NCBI RefSeq assembly: GCF_024746835.1
Contig: NZ_CP080530.1
Span: 558,001-622,000 of the forward strand
Origin: Mesorhizobium sp. AR02
GTDB taxonomy: Bacteria; Pseudomonadota; Alphaproteobacteria; Rhizobiales; Rhizobiaceae
Direction of reading: 5' to 3'
DNA: 64,000 bases
Part shown: one piece after another, positions 19,893 to 28,783 of the stretch
Position numbering within the stretch: the first letter of the stretch is position 1
How the letters are laid out: each line of letters starts with the position of its first letter
Translations under genes and position numbers: made by a program
Notes under the pieces: generated by a model
What the model was told of the DNA's origin: nothing
The model's database searches: none
What the model saw: the letters and a program-made list of their open reading frames with translations, nothing else

Positions 19893-20402
19893 AGCCGCTA
19901 ACCCGTCCTATTCAGTGCGCCCCGATGGCGCGTATCACCAGTGGAGGAAGGTTCCACCCAGATAGTAGTCGATTGGTCTGGTAGCTGACGAGCGGCTCGG
20001 TCGGGTAACTGGCCGGGTCGAAGCCTCGTGACAAAGGCCGCCTTGGGCGGTTGAGCAATCCGATGGGCCGTAACGTGAGTGAAGCCTGAGCAGGCCTCGA
20101 AAGTGATGATGTGGATGCCGACCCGCCTGAATTTCGGGGAAGGCCGCGCGAACGGGGAAGCAATCGACATGTGCACCCGTTCGATCCGCCGGGGTAATGG
20201 GCACGGCACGTCGGAAGGGTGATACGGGTAGGGGGAGACCCGCTCGGCATGAGGGTAGCGGCCTCAACGCAGCCGTCAGGGCGGCGGTGCCGGTGGGAGT
20301 CGGACAGGGTCATAATACCGCTGAAGCCGGGTAATGCCGGTGGAGGGAAGGGCCCTGACTTCTGGTGTGCTTTTGACGTTGGTGAGGAGGGGGTGATTGG
20401 CG

Positions 20403-21725
20403 ATGAGCCTCGAAACACCCGAAAAGATCAGGAACCTTCAGAGGAAGCTGTACCGTAAGGCGAAGGCGGAGCCCGCTTTCCGCTTCTACGTGCTCTACGA
20501 CAAGATCTGCCGTGAGGACATGCTGCGCCATGCCTATGCGCTGGCCCGCGCCAATGCGGGTTCGCCGGGCGTGGACAATGTGACCTTCGCGAAGATCGAG
20601 GCGGAAGGCGCGGAGAGGTGGCTGGCGGGCCTGCGCGAGGAACTTGTCTCGAAGACCTATCGGCCGCAGCCGGTGCGACGGGTGATGATCCCGAAGCCGG
20701 GGGGCGGCGAACGTCCGCTCGGCATCCCGACCATTCGGGACCGGGTGGTTCAGACCGTCGCGAAGCTGGTGCTGGAACCGATATTCGAGGCGGACTTCGA
20801 GGATGGTGCCTATGGCTATCGGCCCAGACGCAGTGGGACCGACGCAATCAAGGAAGTGCACCGGCTTGTCTGCCGGGGCCACACGGACGTGGTAGACGCC
20901 GATTTGTCGAAATACTTCGACACGATTCCGCATTCGGACCTCCTCAAATCGGTGGCCCGACGCATTGTCGACCGGCACGTGCTGCGGCTGATCAAGCTGT
21001 GGCTGAAAGCGCCGATCGAAGAGCGGGACGGTGACGGGAAACGGCACGTGAGCGGTGGTAAGAGCAGCACGCGCGGCACGCCGCAAGGTGGGGTCGCAAG
21101 CCCGCTGCTCTCGGTCATCTACATGAACCGGTTCCTGAAACATTGGCGGCTCACCGGACGCGGCGAGGCGTTCCGTGCGCATGTCATCTCCTATGCCGAT
21201 GACTTCGTCATCCTCAGCCGCGGGCACGCGGTCGAGGCGCTGGCGTGGACGCGGACGGTGATGACGAAACTCGGGCTGACACTCAACGAGGCCAAGACCT
21301 CGGTGAAGGATGCCCGCACGGAGCCTTTCGACTTCCTTGGCTATACGTTCGGACCTCACCGCTACCGGAAAGACGGCCATTGGTACCTGGGTGCGAGCCC
21401 ATCCAAGAAGAGCGTGCAACGGATCAAAACGAAGATTGGCGATCACTTGGTAAACGGTAACAAAGAGCCGTGGCCCGTGGTCTGCACCCGGCTGAACAGG
21501 CTTCTGCGCGGCTGGTCAGGCTACTTTGGCTATGGAACACGCTTGCCGGCCTATCGAGCGGTCGACAACCACGTCTATGACCGTGTTCGCACCTTCCTGC
21601 GCAAACGGCACAAGGTGCAGGGACGCGGCACACAGCGTTTCTCCGACGACATTGTCTTCGGAAAACTTGGTGTCCTGCGTCTTCGACGCGTGCACATTGG
21701 ACCGCCGCCGTGTGCCTCACGATGA
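20403..21725 (+). CDS. ltrA: Group II intron-encoded reverse transcriptase/maturase
   Basis: About 440 residues from the ATG at 20403, preceded by the Shine-Dalgarno GAGGAGGGGG. Reverse-transcriptase blocks are clear: PKPGGGERPLGIPTIRDRVV, YGYRPRRS, DADLSKYFDTIPH, TPQGGVASPLLS and the catalytic YADD in SYADDFVIL. The maturase region with LRGWSGYFGYG follows. No C-terminal HNH endonuclease is seen. The frame is intact, but the intron RNA it needs is disrupted in domain V. Confidence 0.93.
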   Translation: MSLETPEKIRNLQRKLYRKAKAEPAFRFYVLYDKICREDMLRHAYALARANAGSPGVDNVTFAKIEAEGAERWLAGLREELVSKTYRPQPVRRVMIPKPGGGERPLGIPTIRDRVVQTVAKLVLEPIFEADFEDGAYGYRPRRSGTDAIKEVHRLVCRGHTDVVDADLSKYFDTIPHSDLLKSVARRIVDRHVLRLIKLWLKAPIEERDGDGKRHVSGGKSSTRGTPQGGVASPLLSVIYMNRFLKHWRLTGRGEAFRAHVISYADDFVILSRGHAVEALAWTRTVMTKLGLTLNEAKTSVKDARTEPFDFLGYTFGPHRYRKDGHWYLGASPSKKSVQRIKTKIGDHLVNGNKEPWPVVCTRLNRLLRGWSGYFGYGTRLPAYRAVDNHVYDRVRTFLRKRHKVQGRGTQRFSDDIVFGKLGVLRLRRVHIGPPPCASR

Positions 21726-21736
21726 AACCAGTCGGA

Positions 21737-21748
21737 AAGCCGGATGCG
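21737..21748 (+). ncRNA. Group II intron domain V, 5' strand (interrupted)
   Basis: AAGCCGGATGCG contains the AGC catalytic triad and the first strand of the domain V hairpin. It joins exactly to GGAAATCCGCACGTCCGG at 28601 once the inserted RIT and one copy of the duplicated hexamer GATGCG are removed, restoring a standard 34-nucleotide domain V. Confidence 0.8.
21743..21748 (+). repeat. Target hexamer GATGCG, left copy, outer RIT
   Basis: GATGCG here and at 28595-28600 flank the outer RIT element in direct orientation. A third, inverted copy (CGCATC) lies at 28569-28574, immediately after the right terminal repeat. Confidence 0.8.
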
Positions 21749-21839
21749 TAATGTGGCTTCGGTAGAGATGTGGCGTCGGCCGCCGCGGGCCAGAAGCGGC
21801 AGGCCGGTGAGGATGCCGAGCGCCACATAACAAAGCGGG

Positions 21840-22835
21840 TTACAGCGACCGAAGGAAGTCCATCAGCGCCGGTTGGTCACGCCATCGTTTTGGGATTTTG
21901 CCGAGACTCGGCGCCTCGCATTTTTCGAGCGCCTTAGCCTTGGTCTCGAAGTCGACCTCTGCATAGACGTTCGTGGTGTCCAGCGAGACGTGCCCGAGCC
22001 ATCCGCGGACTGTGTTGATGTCGACGCCGGCGCGCAGGAGATGGGTCGCCGTGGTGTGGCGGATGGAGTGAGGGCTTACGCGCTTTGTCGCCAACGATGG
22101 CATTTTGGCGACGACCTTGAGGCCATAACGCTCGACGGCGGTATGGATCCCGAAGCGAGTGATGGGTTGGCCGCAGCGATTGAGGAAGACGGATCGAGAA
22201 GGGGCTCCGTCAGCGACGAGTGCCCGTAACTCGACGACGGTGGCGGTCCACAATGGGCAGTATCGCTGCTTGCCGCCCTTGCCATGGATTTTGACGCTGG
22301 GGGCGTTCAGGTCCAGGTCCGCCACCTTGACGCCGACCGCCTCTGACGCTCTCGCACCAGTGTTGTAGAGGAACAGCAGCAGGGCGTAGTCGCGCCGACC
22401 CTGCTCCGTCCGCCGATCTGGAGCGGCGAGCAAGGCGTCGATCTCCGCCTTTTCGAGGTAAGGAACGACCGCCTGATCGGTCTTCTTGAACGGGATCGAA
22501 CGGATCTGGCCCGACCATTCGATGTGGACGGGGCTATGCTCGCCGACAAAGCCAGCGAACGCCCGAACGGCGGCAAGACGTTGATTTCGGGTGGCGATCG
22601 AACATCGACGCGTCACTTCGATATCGGTCAAGAAGGCGCGGATTAGCTCGGCCGATAAATCGACGACATTCAGGCGATCAATAGACTTGCCGACCCGCTT
22701 CGCAACGAACGGGAGAAGCTGACATAAGCCGTCGCGGTAACCCTGCTGGGTGTTGCGGGCGAGATTGCGCTCGGCAACCACGTGTTCGAGTAGGAACCGC
22801 CGGATCCAGGGGCCAAGGAGCGCCTCGTCACGCAT
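21840..22835 (-). CDS. Outer RIT tyrosine recombinase C
   Basis: A 331-residue tyrosine recombinase from the ATG at 22835, which overlaps the ritB stop by eight bases. It has an N-terminal SAM-like core-binding domain (about residues 10-100) and a catalytic domain with Arg in YNTGARASE, His-x-x-Arg in SIRHTTATHLL, His in WLGHVSLDTTNVY and the nucleophile Tyr in that motif. The long frame to 22880 adds no family sequence. It appears intact. Confidence 0.9.
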   Translation of the reverse strand: MRDEALLGPWIRRFLLEHVVAERNLARNTQQGYRDGLCQLLPFVAKRVGKSIDRLNVVDLSAELIRAFLTDIEVTRRCSIATRNQRLAAVRAFAGFVGEHSPVHIEWSGQIRSIPFKKTDQAVVPYLEKAEIDALLAAPDRRTEQGRRDYALLLFLYNTGARASEAVGVKVADLDLNAPSVKIHGKGGKQRYCPLWTATVVELRALVADGAPSRSVFLNRCGQPITRFGIHTAVERYGLKVVAKMPSLATKRVSPHSIRHTTATHLLRAGVDINTVRGWLGHVSLDTTNVYAEVDFETKAKALEKCEAPSLGKIPKRWRDQPALMDFLRSL

Positions 22836-23022
22836 TGGGCATCTCCATGGCGTAATGCTCGAAGCGCGCGCTGGCCTCACGCAGAAGGTCCGGGGTTAGG
22901 GTTAGGTATCGCTGCGTGCCCGAGATGTTGACGTGGCCAAGGTAGGTGGAGAGCTTGGGCAGAAGCCGTTGGACGTCGGCGCCTTGGCGATACCAGGAGA
23001 GGAGGCGGTGAACTGCAAAACT
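22828..23022 (-). pseudogene. Outer RIT recombinase B, 3' fragment
   Basis: Sixty-four codons read in frame from the insertion point: FAVHRLLSWYRQGADV, then YLGHVNISGTQRYL with the catalytic His and Tyr, ending MEMPNA. It lacks a start. It continues directly from the 5' fragment at 26449-27189 when the inner RIT and one CGTCAT hexamer are removed, giving the expected HDLRHSFAVHR catalytic motif. Confidence 0.85.
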
Positions 23023-23056
23023 ATGACGATAATTCCGAACCCGGAATTATCGTCAT
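23023..23056. repeat. 34-bp hairpin at the ritC end of the inner RIT
   Basis: Fourteen-base arms (ATGACGATAATTCC and its complement) enclose the six bases GAACCC. The outer six bases of each arm are the target hexamer ATGACG and its inverted copy CGTCAT. The outer RIT has the equivalent structure at 28569-28600, but at the ritA end. Confidence 0.85.
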
Positions 23057-23138
23057 AACTCCGAGTGCCGGATTATTCCGAGTGACGGTCCGGGAGGCCA
23101 AAGAGTGCGGGCGATCTGTGGCTGTTGGGTCGGCATAA

Positions 23139-24137
23139 TCAGAGGCTCTTCAGGAATGCAAGGAGATGGTCGTCGGGCTTGTAGCGGCCCAACCGGATGT
23201 CGGCCGTGTCGGTCTTCGCCAGAGCTTGCTCCTTGAGCTTCATGTCGGCCTGAAGATAGATGGCGGTGGTTTCGACCGACTCGTGGCCCAGCCACAGAGC
23301 AATGACCGAGCGGTCGACGCCGTGCTGGAGCAGGTCCATTGCCAGGGTATGCCTCAGGACATGCGGCGTTACGTGCTTGCTGGCCAGCGATGGGCAGTGG
23401 CGACGTGCGACGGCGAGGTGCTTGTTCAGCAGATATTGAAGTGCGTCGTGACTCAATGACGTGCCGCTTATCGTCGGGAAGGCAGGATCGGCGCTCCGCC
23501 CGCGTCGCTCGGCAAGCCAGGCACGCAGCACCGTGACCGTATCCTTGCGAAGCGGGGTATTGCGGAGTTTTCGGCCCTTTCCCTGACATTGCACATAGGC
23601 GGCCGGGCCAAGGACAATGTCCTCGCAGCGAAGGCCGACGATTTCGGCAGCACGCAGGCCGGTCTGCACGGCCAGCAACAGAAGCGCCCGGTCACGGCGC
23701 CCGATCCAGCTGCCGAGGTCGGGGGCGGCGAGCAAGGCGGCGACTTCGACGCTACTGAGGAAGGCGACCGGCCGGCGCACGTAACGCTTGCTCGGAATGG
23801 CGAGCACGCGCTGAGCCAATGCGCTGTGTTCCGGCGCATGCAAGGCCACATAGCGGAAGAAGGAATGGATGGCGGCAAGACGGACATTGCGGCTCCTGGC
23901 GCAGTTGTCGCGTTCGTGTTCGAGATGATCGAGGAAGGCGCCAAGGAAGGCGGTGTCGAGATCCGGCAAGGTGACGTGCGAGGCCCCCTTGCGTAGCTGC
24001 CGCTGGGCATAGGCCAGCAGCAGGCAGAAGGTATCGCGGTAGCTCGCCAGCGTATGCGGGCTTGCTTGTCGTTGTCTGATGAGGCGATCGGTGAAGAAGG
24101 CCTCAAGAAGAGCGGGGAACGTTGGGGCGGCGCTCAT
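23139..24137 (-). CDS. Inner RIT tyrosine recombinase C
   Basis: A 332-residue tyrosine recombinase. The start at 24137 overlaps the ritB stop (ATGA), which excludes the longer frame to 24215. Core-binding domain at about residues 8-110; catalytic Arg in QTGLRAAEI, His-Arg in VLRHTLAMDLL, His-Tyr in WLGHESVETTAIYLQ. The C-terminus (KPDDHLLAFLKSL) resembles that of the outer ritC (PALMDFLRSL). Confidence 0.92.
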   Translation of the reverse strand: MSAAPTFPALLEAFFTDRLIRQRQASPHTLASYRDTFCLLLAYAQRQLRKGASHVTLPDLDTAFLGAFLDHLEHERDNCARSRNVRLAAIHSFFRYVALHAPEHSALAQRVLAIPSKRYVRRPVAFLSSVEVAALLAAPDLGSWIGRRDRALLLLAVQTGLRAAEIVGLRCEDIVLGPAAYVQCQGKGRKLRNTPLRKDTVTVLRAWLAERRGRSADPAFPTISGTSLSHDALQYLLNKHLAVARRHCPSLASKHVTPHVLRHTLAMDLLQHGVDRSVIALWLGHESVETTAIYLQADMKLKEQALAKTDTADIRLGRYKPDDHLLAFLKSL

Positions 24138-25072
24138 GGGCGGGATTCCGGCTGAGATTGTTCCGCCCGCAGCAGCGCTTGCTGCAGCAGCTCCGGCGTT
24201 GCCGTCAAATACCAATAGGTGTCGGTGATGTGGGCATGGCCGAGATAGGTCGCCAACTCGGGCAGGTGGCGTTCGACATCGATGCCGTTGCGATACCAGC
24301 GCAGCAATGTTGTCACGGCCAGTCGGTGGCGAAGGTCGTGCAGGCGTGGCCCGCGGGAGTCATTGGCGCCGCGGAGGCCGACCTCGCGCGACAGCTTGAC
24401 GAACGTCCACCGCACGGCCCATTCGGTTAAACGCATGCCGCGCTCGGAAAGGAAGAAGCTGGAGCTCAGGGGATTGGGGCATGACCGGTCTCGGCTGGCC
24501 GCATAGATTTTGAGAGCGTGTTGCGTCGAGGGGTGAAGCGGCACGTAGCGCGACTTGCCGAACTTCGTGTCGCGAACCGTCAGCACGCCATCAACGAGAT
24601 TGGTGTCGCCGCGATCGAGACGCAGCGGTTCGTTACAGCGCATGCCGGTCGCCGCGTACAAGCCGAAGAGCGTGGCATAGGTCTGCGGGCGAAGGCCGAC
24701 TGTCGACGGCAAGCGCTTTGCCGCGTCGATCAGTCGGGTGATCTCTTCGTCGCGGTAAACATAGGGCGACGATGGCCGACGATACCGGTGAGGAAGAAGG
24801 TCGGGCGGCGGGACGACGGTCTGCGGGTCAATGGCGCTGCAATAGCGCGCGAGCCGGCGAACCATCGCCAACCGGTTGGCCCACTGGGCGGGCTGTGCCT
24901 CTGCCGGCTGCATGGCCCAGGCCAGGGCAATCTCGGTGGTGATGACGGTGGCGCCGGAAGATTCGGCAAAGACAACGAAGCGCTGCAGCAACCGTCCGGA
25001 AAGACGCAGCTTATGGCCGAGGGCGCGGCGCGCGGCCGGGTACTCTTCGAGCGCCGCTTGCAACGCGCTCAT
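24134..25072 (-). CDS. Inner RIT tyrosine recombinase B
   Basis: A 312-residue tyrosine recombinase coupled by ATGA overlaps to ritA and ritC. Catalytic Arg in AATGMRCNEPLRL, Lys-containing TKFGKSRYVPLH, His-Arg in LHDLRHRLAVTTLL, His-Tyr in YLGHAHITDTYWYL. This gene is the counterpart of the outer ritB that was interrupted. Confidence 0.92.
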   Translation of the reverse strand: MSALQAALEEYPAARRALGHKLRLSGRLLQRFVVFAESSGATVITTEIALAWAMQPAEAQPAQWANRLAMVRRLARYCSAIDPQTVVPPPDLLPHRYRRPSSPYVYRDEEITRLIDAAKRLPSTVGLRPQTYATLFGLYAATGMRCNEPLRLDRGDTNLVDGVLTVRDTKFGKSRYVPLHPSTQHALKIYAASRDRSCPNPLSSSFFLSERGMRLTEWAVRWTFVKLSREVGLRGANDSRGPRLHDLRHRLAVTTLLRWYRNGIDVERHLPELATYLGHAHITDTYWYLTATPELLQQALLRAEQSQPESRP

Positions 25073-26292
25073 GATGCGACTCCTGGCCAGGGTAGCGCAA
25101 TGGCACGCAACGCCGCGATGTCGACTTTGGCATAGATCTGTGTCGTGTTCGGCTGGCTGTGGCGGAGAAGTTGACCGATTTCAACGAGCGAGGCGCCGCG
25201 GCGCAGCAGATCGGTGGCGAGTGAGTGACGCAACAGGTGCGCACCCTTGAACGCCGGCGTCAGACCGGCGCGCTTGAGCGCACGATGGACGATGCAGCAA
25301 ATAGTCGACGGGCTGACAAAACTCCGTCTGGGCGCCTTTATGCGAATGAAGACGCGGCGTGTTGAGCAAGCAGGCCGATCTTGCCGCAGATAGTCGACCA
25401 AGGCGGCACCGACATCCGCCGGCAGTGGCAGCCGCGCCAGCCGTTGACCCTTGCCATGCACGACGATCTCGCCGCAATCCCAGTCGAGATCGTCCAGGGT
25501 CAAGGCCGAGACTTCGCCACCCCGTAAGCCGAGGCGCGCGAGCAGCATCAGAACCGCGTAGTCCCTGCGGCCGGCCGGTGTTCTCCTGTCGCAAGACGCA
25601 AGGAGCCGTTCGACCTGTTCGGCAGGCAGCGCCTTCGGCAGATGTGCCAAGCGCCAGCCGGCGATCCCAGGCACCGCGACAGCGAGATCGGTGGCAAGCA
25701 ACCCGCGTTGCTGGAGGAAGCGCAGAAACGAACGCAGCGCCGTGACCGCCAACTTGGCGCGGCCGGGCGAACCGGCCTGGGCGCGCCGCACGATGAACCG
25801 ATGAACGTCGCCCACTCGCAAGCGGTCAAAATCCGGATCGTTGCCGCCAAACTGTTCGTCCAGGAACCCACGAACAATCGGCAGATAGTTCGTCAATGTC
25901 GATGCCGAGAGACCACGCTCGGTGCGCAGGAATTCCCCAAATGCGTCGATCAGCTTACCCTTGGCGCTCGTATCGACCTCCAGCAGCGGTACCGGCACGC
26001 CGCCCGTGTCGCGCAGATATCGGAGCAACTGCCGAATGGTCCAGGCATCGCCACGCCTCGGGCGCCGACCAAGTTCCGTCAGAAATCGATCTGCGTCCTC
26101 TTCCCCGAGCAAGCTCAGCGGAACATCCTGCCTCTCCACCCAAGCACTGAAACCAGCCAGGAGCTTAATCTTCTGCTGAACAGTCGTTTTGGGGTATCCC
26201 TGGCCATCGAGCAAAGCCTCGAAACCATCCAGGTGGCTAGCCAATCGGCCTATCCAGCGATCTTTGGCTAGCGCCTCATTCAGATCAATCAT
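25069..26292 (-). CDS. Inner RIT tyrosine recombinase A
   Basis: A 407-residue recombinase from the ATG of MIDLNEALAKD; an in-frame start at 26379 is possible but lies in sequence without family character. It has an N-terminal extension and core-binding domain, then catalytic Arg in LGLRGGEVSAL, His-Arg in AHLLRHSLATDLL, and His-Tyr in LLRHSQPNTTQIYAKV. It is the first gene of the inner trio. Confidence 0.9.
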   Translation of the reverse strand: MIDLNEALAKDRWIGRLASHLDGFEALLDGQGYPKTTVQQKIKLLAGFSAWVERQDVPLSLLGEEDADRFLTELGRRPRRGDAWTIRQLLRYLRDTGGVPVPLLEVDTSAKGKLIDAFGEFLRTERGLSASTLTNYLPIVRGFLDEQFGGNDPDFDRLRVGDVHRFIVRRAQAGSPGRAKLAVTALRSFLRFLQQRGLLATDLAVAVPGIAGWRLAHLPKALPAEQVERLLASCDRRTPAGRRDYAVLMLLARLGLRGGEVSALTLDDLDWDCGEIVVHGKGQRLARLPLPADVGAALVDYLRQDRPACSTRRVFIRIKAPRRSFVSPSTICCIVHRALKRAGLTPAFKGAHLLRHSLATDLLRRGASLVEIGQLLRHSQPNTTQIYAKVDIAALRAIALPWPGVAS

Positions 26293-26448
26293 CGTCTGTC
26301 TCCCTATATCGTGGGAAAGTTCACGCTCAGAAAGAGCAGCCGAATAATGTCGCGCAATCAACGGCCGACGCTGATCCAATTACTTGCAATCATGAGAAAA
26401 TTACGCCGCGGCGATGGCGTCACTCGGAATAATCCGGCACTCGGAGTT

Positions 26449-27189
26449 ATGACGAAGATCATGCAAGCGAGGCTGATGTCGCGGCCCGGCGCCGGCGCAC
26501 ACGACATTCGCTTTGACGCGTAATCGGCAGAACTCCCTCTCAGCGTGTTGCAGGGTCACAGGGGCGCCCTGGCGCGTGAGGAACCAGAGGGATTCTGCAG
26601 ACTGGCCTTCGCGGCGGCGAGAAGCGTGCCGGGATAAGATGCGCACGAGGTCGTGGCCGATCGGAGCCAGTCTGGTCTTGTAAAACTTGCTCTCGCGGAC
26701 GCACAGAATCCCTTCCTCGAGGTCGACGTCGGCTAAGGTGAGGGACAGTGCCTCGCCAAGGCGAAGGCCCGCGCCGTAAAGGAGAAGCAGGAGCGTTCGG
26801 TATGTGTCCGGATCAATAGGACAGCGAGGATGGTCGATCAGGACGACGGCGTCGAGTAAACGACCGATCTCCTCGCGGGAGTAAATGTAGGGAACGAAGG
26901 CTTCCGTCGGCTTGGGGACGGCGCGTGGCAACGGCCATATGTTTGTATGCCCCCGGGCCATCGCGAACCGATAGAAGCCCGCCAGAACAGAATGCTTTCG
27001 TTCCCAGAAACGGGTCACCGGGCCGCGTCCCGCCAGAAAGGCCAACACTCGGTCGGCCGTCACCTCCGGCAGAGGTCTGTCGCCGACGAAGCGACAGAAC
27101 GACTTGAGCGTGCGCACCTCCGTGCGGAAGCGCATTCCGATTGCTTGCCGGTGATCGACAAAGCTGGCGATAATTTCTGAAAGGATCAT
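26449..27189 (-). pseudogene. Outer RIT recombinase B, 5' fragment
   Basis: Starts with an ATG overlapping the ritA stop (27186-27189). It carries the core-binding domain and the catalytic Arg in YGAGLRLGEALSL, then is cut after LHDLRH by the inner RIT. The published-looking frame continues a few codons into the element to a stop at 26401. Its continuation is at 22828-23022. Confidence 0.88.
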
Positions 27190-28436
27190 GCCAGTCCTCC
27201 CAGATCGAACGCCCCGACCTCGCGCAGTCCGGCAAGGTCGACCCTGGCGTAGGTGCGGGTCGCAAAGGCGCTGCGATGGCCGAGATGGTCCCCGATTTCC
27301 TTCAGGCTCAGACCTTGCGCAACAAGGTGGGTGGCGCAGGCGTGGCGAAGTCCATGAGGGCCAAAATGCATCGACTGAACCCCCAGGGCGCTCAGTCGGC
27401 TTGCAACCACATGGTACACTGCGCTCGCCGACAGCGGCCGGAACGGGGCCTTGAGGGTGAGGAAGACCTCATGGCGACGGCAGCGGGGGCGCGCCAGCTG
27501 AAGGTAACTCACAACAGCGTCGCCGACGGAGGTCACCAGGGGGTAGTATTGCATCTTGCGCTGCTTGGACCGGGTCACCTTGATGACCTCTCTCGTCCAA
27601 TCGATGTCTTCGAGACAAAGACCGCGGACTTCGCCGCTTCGCAGTCCGTAGATCGCGAGCAGCTTTAGAATCGCGTGGTCACGGACGTCACGCGCGGTCC
27701 TGTCCCTCGTGCTCTCAAGGAGCCGCTGGACATCGGGCCATGCCGGGCCCATCGGCAAAGCTTCTTCCCTGAACAGTCGCGGCGCGTCGATCGCTGCGGC
27801 GATTCCGGGGCAACACCATTGTCGACGCTGAGCATGGCGGAAGAACGCGCGCAGGGCGTGCGCGCTCGTCGCTACCGACACCCGAGACCACCCGCCACGA
27901 CCCTTCACGTCGAGGAAAGCGTCTACGTCTGCAACGGTGATGTCGGCGATCGACGATTTTTCGACGCCTAAATGTTCGAGGAAAGTCTCTACCTGCCAGC
28001 GCTGGTTGGCTAGGGTGCTCGCCGACAAGCCACGCTCATCATGTTGATAGGCGATGAAGTCGTCGACCTTTTCACAATGGGCCTTCGGTTCGTTGGGAGC
28101 CGGTTCGTCAAGCTGGCCAAGAAAGCAAAGCCACGCTGCGGCGACGTCATGGAACAAACGCCGTGACCACTTCTCACCGCAGGCTCTGTTTCGCGCGTGC
28201 TGGTATCGGGCCCAAGATTGAGCGGCCGCGTCGATCTCGGCCTGCCTGACGCACCTGCCGCCGGACAGGTCCAGCCGCTCCGCAATGACCAGCAGTTCGC
28301 GGGCCGTGCGCAGCAAAGTCTCACGAGCCGCACGCTGATCGGCGAGATGCTTGAGATAGCGCAGCCGCTTCGAGGCCTCGGGCCCGTCATGGTGACGCGC
28401 TACGACCTTCGGGTAGGCGAATAAGTCCTCGAACAT
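27186..28436 (-). CDS. Outer RIT tyrosine recombinase A
   Basis: A 416-residue recombinase from the ATG at 28436 (a GTG at 28472 is also open). It has a long N-terminal region, core-binding domain (SASTLANQRWQVETFLEHLG, about residues 145-165), catalytic Arg in YGLRSGEVRGL, His-Arg in PHGLRHACATHLV and His-Tyr in HLGHRSAFATRTYARVD. It is intact although its partner ritB is not. Confidence 0.9.
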   Translation of the reverse strand: MFEDLFAYPKVVARHHDGPEASKRLRYLKHLADQRAARETLLRTARELLVIAERLDLSGGRCVRQAEIDAAAQSWARYQHARNRACGEKWSRRLFHDVAAAWLCFLGQLDEPAPNEPKAHCEKVDDFIAYQHDERGLSASTLANQRWQVETFLEHLGVEKSSIADITVADVDAFLDVKGRGGWSRVSVATSAHALRAFFRHAQRRQWCCPGIAAAIDAPRLFREEALPMGPAWPDVQRLLESTRDRTARDVRDHAILKLLAIYGLRSGEVRGLCLEDIDWTREVIKVTRSKQRKMQYYPLVTSVGDAVVSYLQLARPRCRRHEVFLTLKAPFRPLSASAVYHVVASRLSALGVQSMHFGPHGLRHACATHLVAQGLSLKEIGDHLGHRSAFATRTYARVDLAGLREVGAFDLGGLA

Positions 28437-28568
28437 GCCTCGGATCTCCAGTGAGGTGGGAAATCCGATCACCTATATCCAGTTTGTTATGTGGCGCTCG
28501 GCATCCTCACCGGCCTGCCGCTTCTGGCCCGCGGCGGCCGACGCCACATCTCTACCGAAGCCACATTA

Positions 28569-28600
28569 CGCATCAAATGTGCTCAAACACATTTGATGCG
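28569..28600. repeat. 32-bp hairpin at the ritA end of the outer RIT
   Basis: Thirteen-base arms (CGCATCAAATGTG and its complement) enclose CTCAAA. The outermost six bases are the inverted (CGCATC) and direct (GATGCG) target hexamers. The inner arm AAATGTG resembles the start of the terminal repeat (TAATGTGG), so the hairpin may be a pair of recombinase core sites around a six-base spacer. Confidence 0.85.
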
Positions 28601-28690
28601 GGAAATCCGCACGTCCGGTTTGATGAGCGGGGAAGGGAAACGGAGCGATGCCAACACGGCCCAAGCCACCGCGCCCTTCCTCGACTCTAC
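28601..28690 (+). ncRNA. Group II intron domain V 3' strand and domain VI
   Basis: GGAAATCCGCACGTCCGG completes domain V. A following hairpin built from GGGGAAGGG and CCCTTCCTC, with an unpaired A region near CGACTC, is the expected domain VI. The intron then ends at about 28690 in CTCTAC. The exact 3' base is inferred from the domain VI position. Confidence 0.7.
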
Positions 28691-28783
28691 TGGGGGTTGG
28701 TGGATGTGGCGCAAGCCGTTGAAATGACTTAGGATTTGGTTGCTTAAGCCGATCCGAACCATTTCCCGGAGACCACACCCACC

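Follow-up and report, generated by a model that had tools for sequence, protein, structure and literature searches.

RIT elements, described as sets of three adjacent, overlapping tyrosine recombinase genes (ritA, ritB and ritC) of about 3.5 kb (PMC3414803), appear to carry six-base traces of their earlier targets and to enter a target in either orientation. The evidence comes from two such elements, one lodged inside the other, in a 64,000-nucleotide stretch of Mesorhizobium sp. AR02 (contig NZ_CP080530.1, positions 558,001–622,000; this whole stretch is here termed the window), and from RIT insertions in other genomes. In the account that we consider probable, the element passes through a circle with two recombination sites, either of which can be used, and the spacer of the used site is renewed from the donor's target.

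Both elements in the window follow a common plan: flank, hexamer a, 20-bp palindrome, hexamer b, terminal inverted repeat (TIR), three genes, TIR, hexamer c, flank. Here a is the palindrome-side hexamer, b the internal hexamer between palindrome and TIR, and c the TIR-side hexamer beyond the far TIR. Hexamers and palindromes were placed by direct reading and TIRs by inverted-repeat pairing. The outer element (21743–28600) opens with hexamer c, GATGCG (21743–21748, + strand), and the TIR of its ritC end (21749–21834, +), which is 86 bp long, or a 92-bp inverted repeat counting the hexamer. Its ritA end has the matching TIR (28483–28568, − strand), hexamer b, CGCATC (28569–28574, +), the palindrome AAATGTG-CTCAAA-CACATTT (28575–28594) and hexamer a, again GATGCG (28595–28600, +). 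The inner element (23024–26455; 38-bp inverted repeats) has its palindrome at the ritC end, and reads hexamer a, TGACGA (23024–23029, +), palindrome TAATTCC-GAACCC-GGAATTA (23030–23049), hexamer b, TCGTCA (23050–23055, +), and ritC-end TIR (23056–23087, +), then, after the genes, ritA-end TIR (26418–26449, −) and hexamer c, TGACGA (26450–26455, +).

A shared end signature of this kind, with a hairpin at the ritA end of the outer element and at the ritC end of the inner one, had been proposed in a first-pass annotation of the window, and direct reading confirms it. The outer hexamer GATGCG and centre CTCAAA are as first read (21743–21748 and 28575–28600), as is the inner centre GAACCC; the inner hexamer had been given as ATGACG, one base off. 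With TGACGA in its place the two elements agree in their dimensions: spacers of 6 bp, and a palindrome of 20 bp whose centre is 6 bp long.

Relatives were collected by a RitB alignment search of bacterial and archaeal species genomes; the best 80 loci were kept and 76 analysed, leaving out L114, L120, L128 and L137. A strict scan (palindrome, six bases, TIR with a 17-bp period, matching far TIR) finds the same anatomy in 32 of the 76 loci and in none of 76 shuffled sequences. Without the far-TIR condition the counts are 36/76 and 2/76; each locus had one letter shuffle, and the scan criteria were chosen after the first matches in the same loci. Our first finder placed 36 loci above 17, the highest score from one shuffle per locus. 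A shape filter then kept 29 of these 36, removing L129, L134, L153, L156, L170, L179 and L191; filter and parsing presupposed a 20-bp palindrome and 6-bp spacers, so the constancy of these lengths among the 29 is partly built in. By record title, the matches include Verrucomicrobia, Acidobacteria, Planctomycetota, Actinomycetota, Dehalococcoidia and Proteobacteria. The palindrome lies at the ritA end in 15 of the filtered relatives and at the ritC end in 14. A search for the inner-junction pattern across the family matched one genome, G000, of 297.

The 17-bp motif period noticed at first sight in the TIRs is real. The ritC-end TIR of the inner element has a 7-bp motif at +0 and +17, that of the outer element has it at +0 and, with 5/7 letters, at +17, and the outermost 7-mer is best matched a second time at +17 in 29/29 filtered relatives (offsets 8 to 23 were tried). 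The palindrome arm is moreover similar to the outer arm of the TIR (e.g. TTATGCC in both) and, given the second TIR copy at +17, the joint therefore reads arm-6-arm-6-arm-6-arm. The hexamers are not always alike. All three are identical in the window, as had been stated, but a, b and c coincide in only 7 of the 24 relatives from the filtered set in which all three are readable and the palindrome is at one end only.

Natural empty sites bear directly on the nature of the hexamers. In the empty introns L105 and L106 the site of the outer insertion reads AAGCCG-GATGCG-GGAAATCC, with the hexamer once and no duplication, and L001 and L002, in which outer ritB is intact, read AACTA-TGACGA-AGGTC at the position of the inner insertion, again with one copy. 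The cleanest case is a pair of R. rhizogenes plasmids: pRi1724 (L197) is empty and reads GAGCTT-GGCACT-CATGATC, and the RIT in pRi2659 (L196) has GGCACT on its TIR side, TGCTGT on its palindrome side and ACCGCC inside. In all seven insertions with a different from c and with an empty homologue (L196/L173, L001, L002, the inner copy in L022, L110, L109 and L111; not all independent, L001 and L002 being of one family and one strain), the hexamer next to the TIR is that of the target, and the one next to the palindrome is foreign.

Since empty sites hold one copy and the foreign hexamer lies palindrome-side, these comparisons support the earlier proposal that the six-base units behave as strand-exchange spacers, not as target duplications. 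Ordinary target-site duplications beside a palindrome that is an incidental internal repeat would suit the identical hexamers of the window and its single-copy empty sites. We nevertheless give that explanation almost no credence: the flanking hexamers differ in L196, L110, L109, L111, L001 and L002, in each of which the empty site agrees with the TIR-side hexamer and not with the other, and the palindrome recurs across phyla. The natural empty sites rule it out. Were two strands exchanged and then replicated, both placements would be expected equally often; the 7/7 bias suggests that one strand is exchanged.

The first-pass annotation had also supposed that the body may invert relative to the hairpin. 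Both orientations do occur at the same target, in the window compared with L022 and in L208 compared with L209, but plain inversion does not describe what is seen. L022 is a second nested pair from the same genome as the window, lodged in another intron copy. Its outer and inner bodies are both reversed relative to the target, the palindrome stays on the same target side, and the loop, that is the six-base centre, is likewise reversed for both elements. The RIT bodies of Acidiphilium cryptum pACRY01 (L208) and A. multivorum pACMV1 (L209) are identical over 3339/3339 bases and lie in the same target gene in opposite orientation. L208 has TGCCCC as a, loop GACATC, TGGCCG as b and TGCCCC as c; L209 has TGGCCG as a, loop GATGTC, TGCCCC as b and TGCCCC as c. 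Between the two copies a and b are thus swapped and the loop is reversed. A single circle, ritA-TGGCCG-[TTATGCC GATGTC GGCATAA]-GGGGCA-ritC, would give L209 if its ritA-side site were used and L208 if its ritC-side site were used.

Within sets that share a loop up to reversal, the polarity of the loop relative to the genes is constant in 19/19 cases: outer elements 6/6 (two copies have the variant loop CTCGAA, and the gene end of L088 is an assignment), inner 3/3, Acidiphilium 2/2 and the G816 family 8/8 (gene ends known only as two distinct sequences). Polarity was counted only in such same-loop sets; L003, L094 and L095 were kept apart, and the inner loop of L085 and L086 is palindromic and uninformative. 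In the G816 family six copies lie in one orientation and two in the other, and L227 and L230 have one spacer pair in common in opposite orientations. The eight G816 loci, L227–L234, are junctions of a further RIT-type end that stop 60–165 bases inside the element, before the genes.

If the body inverted where it lies, the TIRs recombining with each other or the internal core site with the TIR-side one, both body orientations at one target would also result, and the long, identical TIRs (92 bp in the outer element, 38 bp in the inner) offer such an inversion a substrate. One copy, L003, does look flipped, its loop polarity being reversed against that of L094 and L095, and the double palindromes of L108 and L153 described below could come from internal-site exchange between two elements. 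Under in-place inversion, however, neither the loop nor hexamer a should change with respect to the target; the two differ between L208 and L209, the loop is reversed in both Mesorhizobium pairs, and polarity is constant throughout the same-loop sets. We therefore regard in-place inversion as improbable, and TIR recombination is rejected as the main route since the changes seen in loop polarity and in the hexamers are not those that it predicts.

The loops also bear on which bases are carried. The hairpin had been thought to hold two core sites, with its centre as a spacer brought from an earlier target. That the palindrome takes part in two core sites and that spacers are carried both stand; the centre as the carried spacer is ruled out, since CTCAAA is unchanged in four outer copies with three different spacer pairs. 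As read from these copies, the six-base centre is element sequence, and the carried spacers are the hexamers flanking the palindrome.

The mechanism that we prefer, with the circle used at either of two inverted sites, would run as follows. A RIT would move through a circle whose junction is TIR(A)-6-palindrome-6-TIR(C). Such a junction would amount to two complete core sites head to head, each joining one arm from a TIR to one arm of the palindrome across a 6-bp spacer, so that in the outer element, for example, TIR-b-palindrome would form a complete core site and the palindrome would supply the second half-site of both. Either core site could recombine with a target, presumably by the action of the Rit proteins, and in consequence the genes could enter in either orientation with the palindrome always to one constant side of the target. 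At integration, the used site would leave its spacer on the palindrome side as a, the target's own hexamer would lie beside the TIR as c, and the unused spacer would stay inside as b. The next circle would take c, so the used site would be overwritten with the hexamer of the donor's target and the other site would keep an older one. One specific strand would be exchanged and the product then resolved by replication, as has been proposed for strand-biased circularizing integrative (SE) elements.

The rule for the renewed spacer was examined by asking, from the circle spacers hA and hC, whether one copy could have donated another, in 14 ordered pairs from five sets, four of them within one genome each and one across the two Acidiphilium species. 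A circle that takes c fits 6/14 ordered pairs, and one that takes a fits 4/14. Three same-genome pairs (L001 to L002, L022 to L023 and L086 to L085) fit the first rule and not the second; both rules fit the outer elements of the window and L022, whose spacer pairs are identical, and L208 to L209. From these three same-genome pairs, the used site would seem to take up the hexamer of the donor's target.

Several observations weigh against this account. All of the evidence comes from finished insertions, and neither a circle nor a transposition event is among the observations. Numbers in the donor comparison are small, the rule fits only part of each set's ordered pairs, and the inner copy of the window requires an unseen intermediate under it. 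L003, an inner relative 97% identical to that of the window, has GAGTTC toward ritC, opposite to the GAACTC of L094 and L095, and its loop is nearer the reverse of the window's GAACCC than GAACCC itself. Several of the empty sites are homologues and not from the same strain: those of L109 match at 85–87% and one of the two has a third hexamer, TCACGA, and those of L002 match only the last 89 and 65 query bases, at 93–96%. L199, a 97% homologue of the L023 target, has TGTCGC, in agreement with hexamer b of L023 but not with its hexamer c; the target in that strain may have differed. Empty-site searches gave only a self-match for L003 and no match reaching the insertion point for L169. The strict signature is absent in 14 of the 33 loci with enough flank, of which three have an imperfect palindrome (L143, L153 and L179), two have TIRs but no palindrome (L134 and L192) and nine have no inverted repeat clearly above shuffle. 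Finally, 3/29 filtered relatives (L145, L162 and L175) have a palindrome at both ends; two of these adjoin a contig end.

The same junction can be imagined in another form, in which the circle acts as a folded single strand, much as an integron attC site does: the TIRs would pair, the spacers would form a central region in which pairing is not required, and the palindrome would be the hairpin at the tip. Either strand could fold, giving both orientations, and one strand would be exchanged and completed by replication. The Acidiphilium junction does fold into one long hairpin (8-bp tip stem, 4-nt loop, −44.4 kcal/mol; 0/200 shuffles as good), the order box-6-box-loop-box-6-box is like that of attC, which has an outer and an inner pair of boxes, spacers between them and a terminal loop (PMC2727003), and both the symmetry and the 7/7 placement bias, which suggests single-strand exchange, fit as well. 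Yet any inverted repeat would fold equally well, and four of the six spacer positions pair in the one junction folded, so that the central bubble is not clear. The palindrome centre is 6 nt in 29/29 relatives (under a filter that assumed the 20-bp palindrome), whereas the tip of attC varies in length (PMC2727003), a point in favour of double-stranded use. Finished products are identical under folded and double-stranded use. A folded hairpin that requires a = b is unsupported, since the two agree in only 10 of the 24 readable relatives. We hold the folded form to be possible but doubtful, and strand-biased recombination as in SE elements is favoured over it.

A more far-reaching version, for which we would venture slightly less, sees RITs as self-encoded attC-like systems whose junction folds from either strand without strand choice, inserting single strands in both orientations and keeping a two-slot record of the last targets. 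The attC site is a cassette site served by a separate integrase, IntI, which recombines the cassette at attI, with strand choice set by extrahelical bases, whose removal partly abolishes that choice (PMC2727003); the RIT junction is by inspection symmetrical, without extrahelical bases, and its recombinases are encoded by the element itself. In CTX phage the circular genome likewise bears two inverted core-like sites, attP1 and attP2, used as a folded single strand, although the recombinases are the host's XerC and XerD, acting at dif.

Among described elements, the SE elements are one of the closest parallels. Their spacers are also 6 bp long, target and carried hexamers each keep to a fixed end, and the circle takes up the target-side hexamer, as in the rule given above for RITs (PMC10214605). 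SE circles form by copy-out, leaving no empty site. They differ in having the core genes intA, tfp, intB and srap and a single joint site in the circle (PMC10214605), whereas a RIT carries three recombinases between identical TIRs and, on the reading preferred here, two inverted sites. In the window only three tyrosine recombinase genes were found between the TIRs and not an intA-tfp-intB-srap set, the tfp and srap genes not having been searched with profiles of their own. The SE-like placement in 7/7 informative RITs concerns mode of action, not membership. Tn554-related elements encode TnpA, TnpB and TnpC, and the available part of their description mentions no terminal inverted repeats or shared palindrome (PMC10214605). 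The tnpA-tnpB-tnpC set was not found in the RITs either, three tyrosine recombinases standing in its place; no TnpC profile was searched by name.

Target sites of these elements have features in common. Where the joined flanks can be read in frame and classed, the side of the palindrome is fixed relative to the target motif and the genes point either way. This holds for the HDLRH-like motif of tyrosine recombinases (8/8; palindrome at the ritA end in three and the ritC end in five), the IS66 DDE motif (3/3), zincins (2/2) and the IS66 C-terminal motif (4/4, with the body two each way). Pfam confirms the targets in L132, L136, L142, L151 and L167 as IS66, that in L141 as Phage_integrase and that in L189 as a zincin; for L115, L116 and L123, whose 51-residue peptides have no Pfam match, the class comes from motif reading. 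The insertion in L109 lies in istA of IS21. Conserved codons of mobile or plasmid genes are the site in L132, L136, L142, L151, L167, L169, L173, L109, L111, L208, L209 and others, and the target types seen are the IS66 DDE and C-terminal motifs, IS21 istA, zincin/ArdC-type genes, the tyrosine recombinase HDLRH motif and the 3′ region of group II introns. RITs have been reported in IS66 tnpA (PMC2864759) and in a Tn6049-related transposase (PMC3414803). Those examined here, so far as their flanks were identified, tend to lie in conserved codons of other mobile genes.

The window insertions belong to these types. The host of the outer element is a group II intron (20397–21742, +; maturase open reading frame (ORF) 20397–21725), recognized from its ORFs and by intron comparison, and the insertion lies close to the intron 3′ end, in a stretch that we take to be domain V. 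The inner element is inserted in outer ritB (22828–27189, −) at the codons for a conserved LRH stretch, splitting the gene between 23023 and 26456; the gene was delimited from the intact homologues in L001 and L002, its low end by position in the L001 annotation. Outer ritC (21840–22880, −) encodes 346 amino acids from the ORF-tool start (PF00589, 1e-33), and its annotated start, judged by position in L001, would be 22835. Outer ritA (27186–28472, −) encodes 428 amino acids (PF00589, 4.6e-27). The inner genes, all on the − strand, are ritC (23139–24215; 358 amino acids, 1.5e-28), ritB (24134–25072; 312 amino acids, 1.3e-18) and ritA (25069–26379; 436 amino acids, 1.2e-26). PF00589 is therefore present in 5/5 unbroken recombinases scanned in the window, a set without the interrupted outer ritB. 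The TIR-to-TIR length is 3394 bp in the inner element, L001 and L002 alike. With three adjacent overlapping tyrosine recombinase genes, about 3.5 kb with TIRs, and a palindrome overlapping the inverted repeat, the window elements have the features of RITs.

Homology between the surroundings of L022 and the window covers only 19895–28692 within the 27 kb compared. Segmental duplication is on this ground rejected as the origin of the two nested copies, which sit in two intron copies. The composite with a broken outer ritB is thus found in two different intron copies, so its movement either was aided in trans, or preceded the inner insertions, or came about by conversion. The five bases past hexamer c (26456–26460) are AGATC in the window, in L022 and in the L023 target, and AGGTC in the uninterrupted ritB of L001 and L002.

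Some further loci touch on the end structure. In L108 and in L153 both ends of a single element carry a palindrome, similarly oriented, and an exchange at the internal core site of another copy may have produced this. L081–L084, from further genomes of the genus to which the window belongs, are short solo pieces of outer-type TIR, palindrome and hexamer, probably truncated copies. L127 and further draft contigs of about 3.4 kb hold little beyond one RIT, and one title gives a coverage of 461, which suggests collapsed multi-copy elements. The stretch GCCAAGCTAAAAACGCTCTG lies directly outside a TIR in two different RITs, L004 (near 1500, reverse strand) and L192 (ritC end), and in L004 an IS91 family transposase is annotated near it.

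The published description of RITs already states that a palindromic sequence overlaps the inverted repeat, and that the end features fit the usual recombinase sites poorly (PMC3414803). Set against the portion of that description available to us, the palindrome is here resolved into half-sites of two core sites and can be at either end, and the 6-bp spacers, the empty sites and the transfer rule are added. The two-core-site anatomy was not found in the RIT literature searched, although Ricker et al. 2013 and Van Houdt et al. 2009 may hold parts of it. The anatomy is concrete and checkable, giving the core sites, the spacer, the placement of the target hexamer and a reason for both orientations, and it helps to delimit RIT insertions in genomes. 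The hexamers may moreover let donor and recipient copies be told from sequence alone, and the mode of movement ties RITs to the SE and Tn554 elements.

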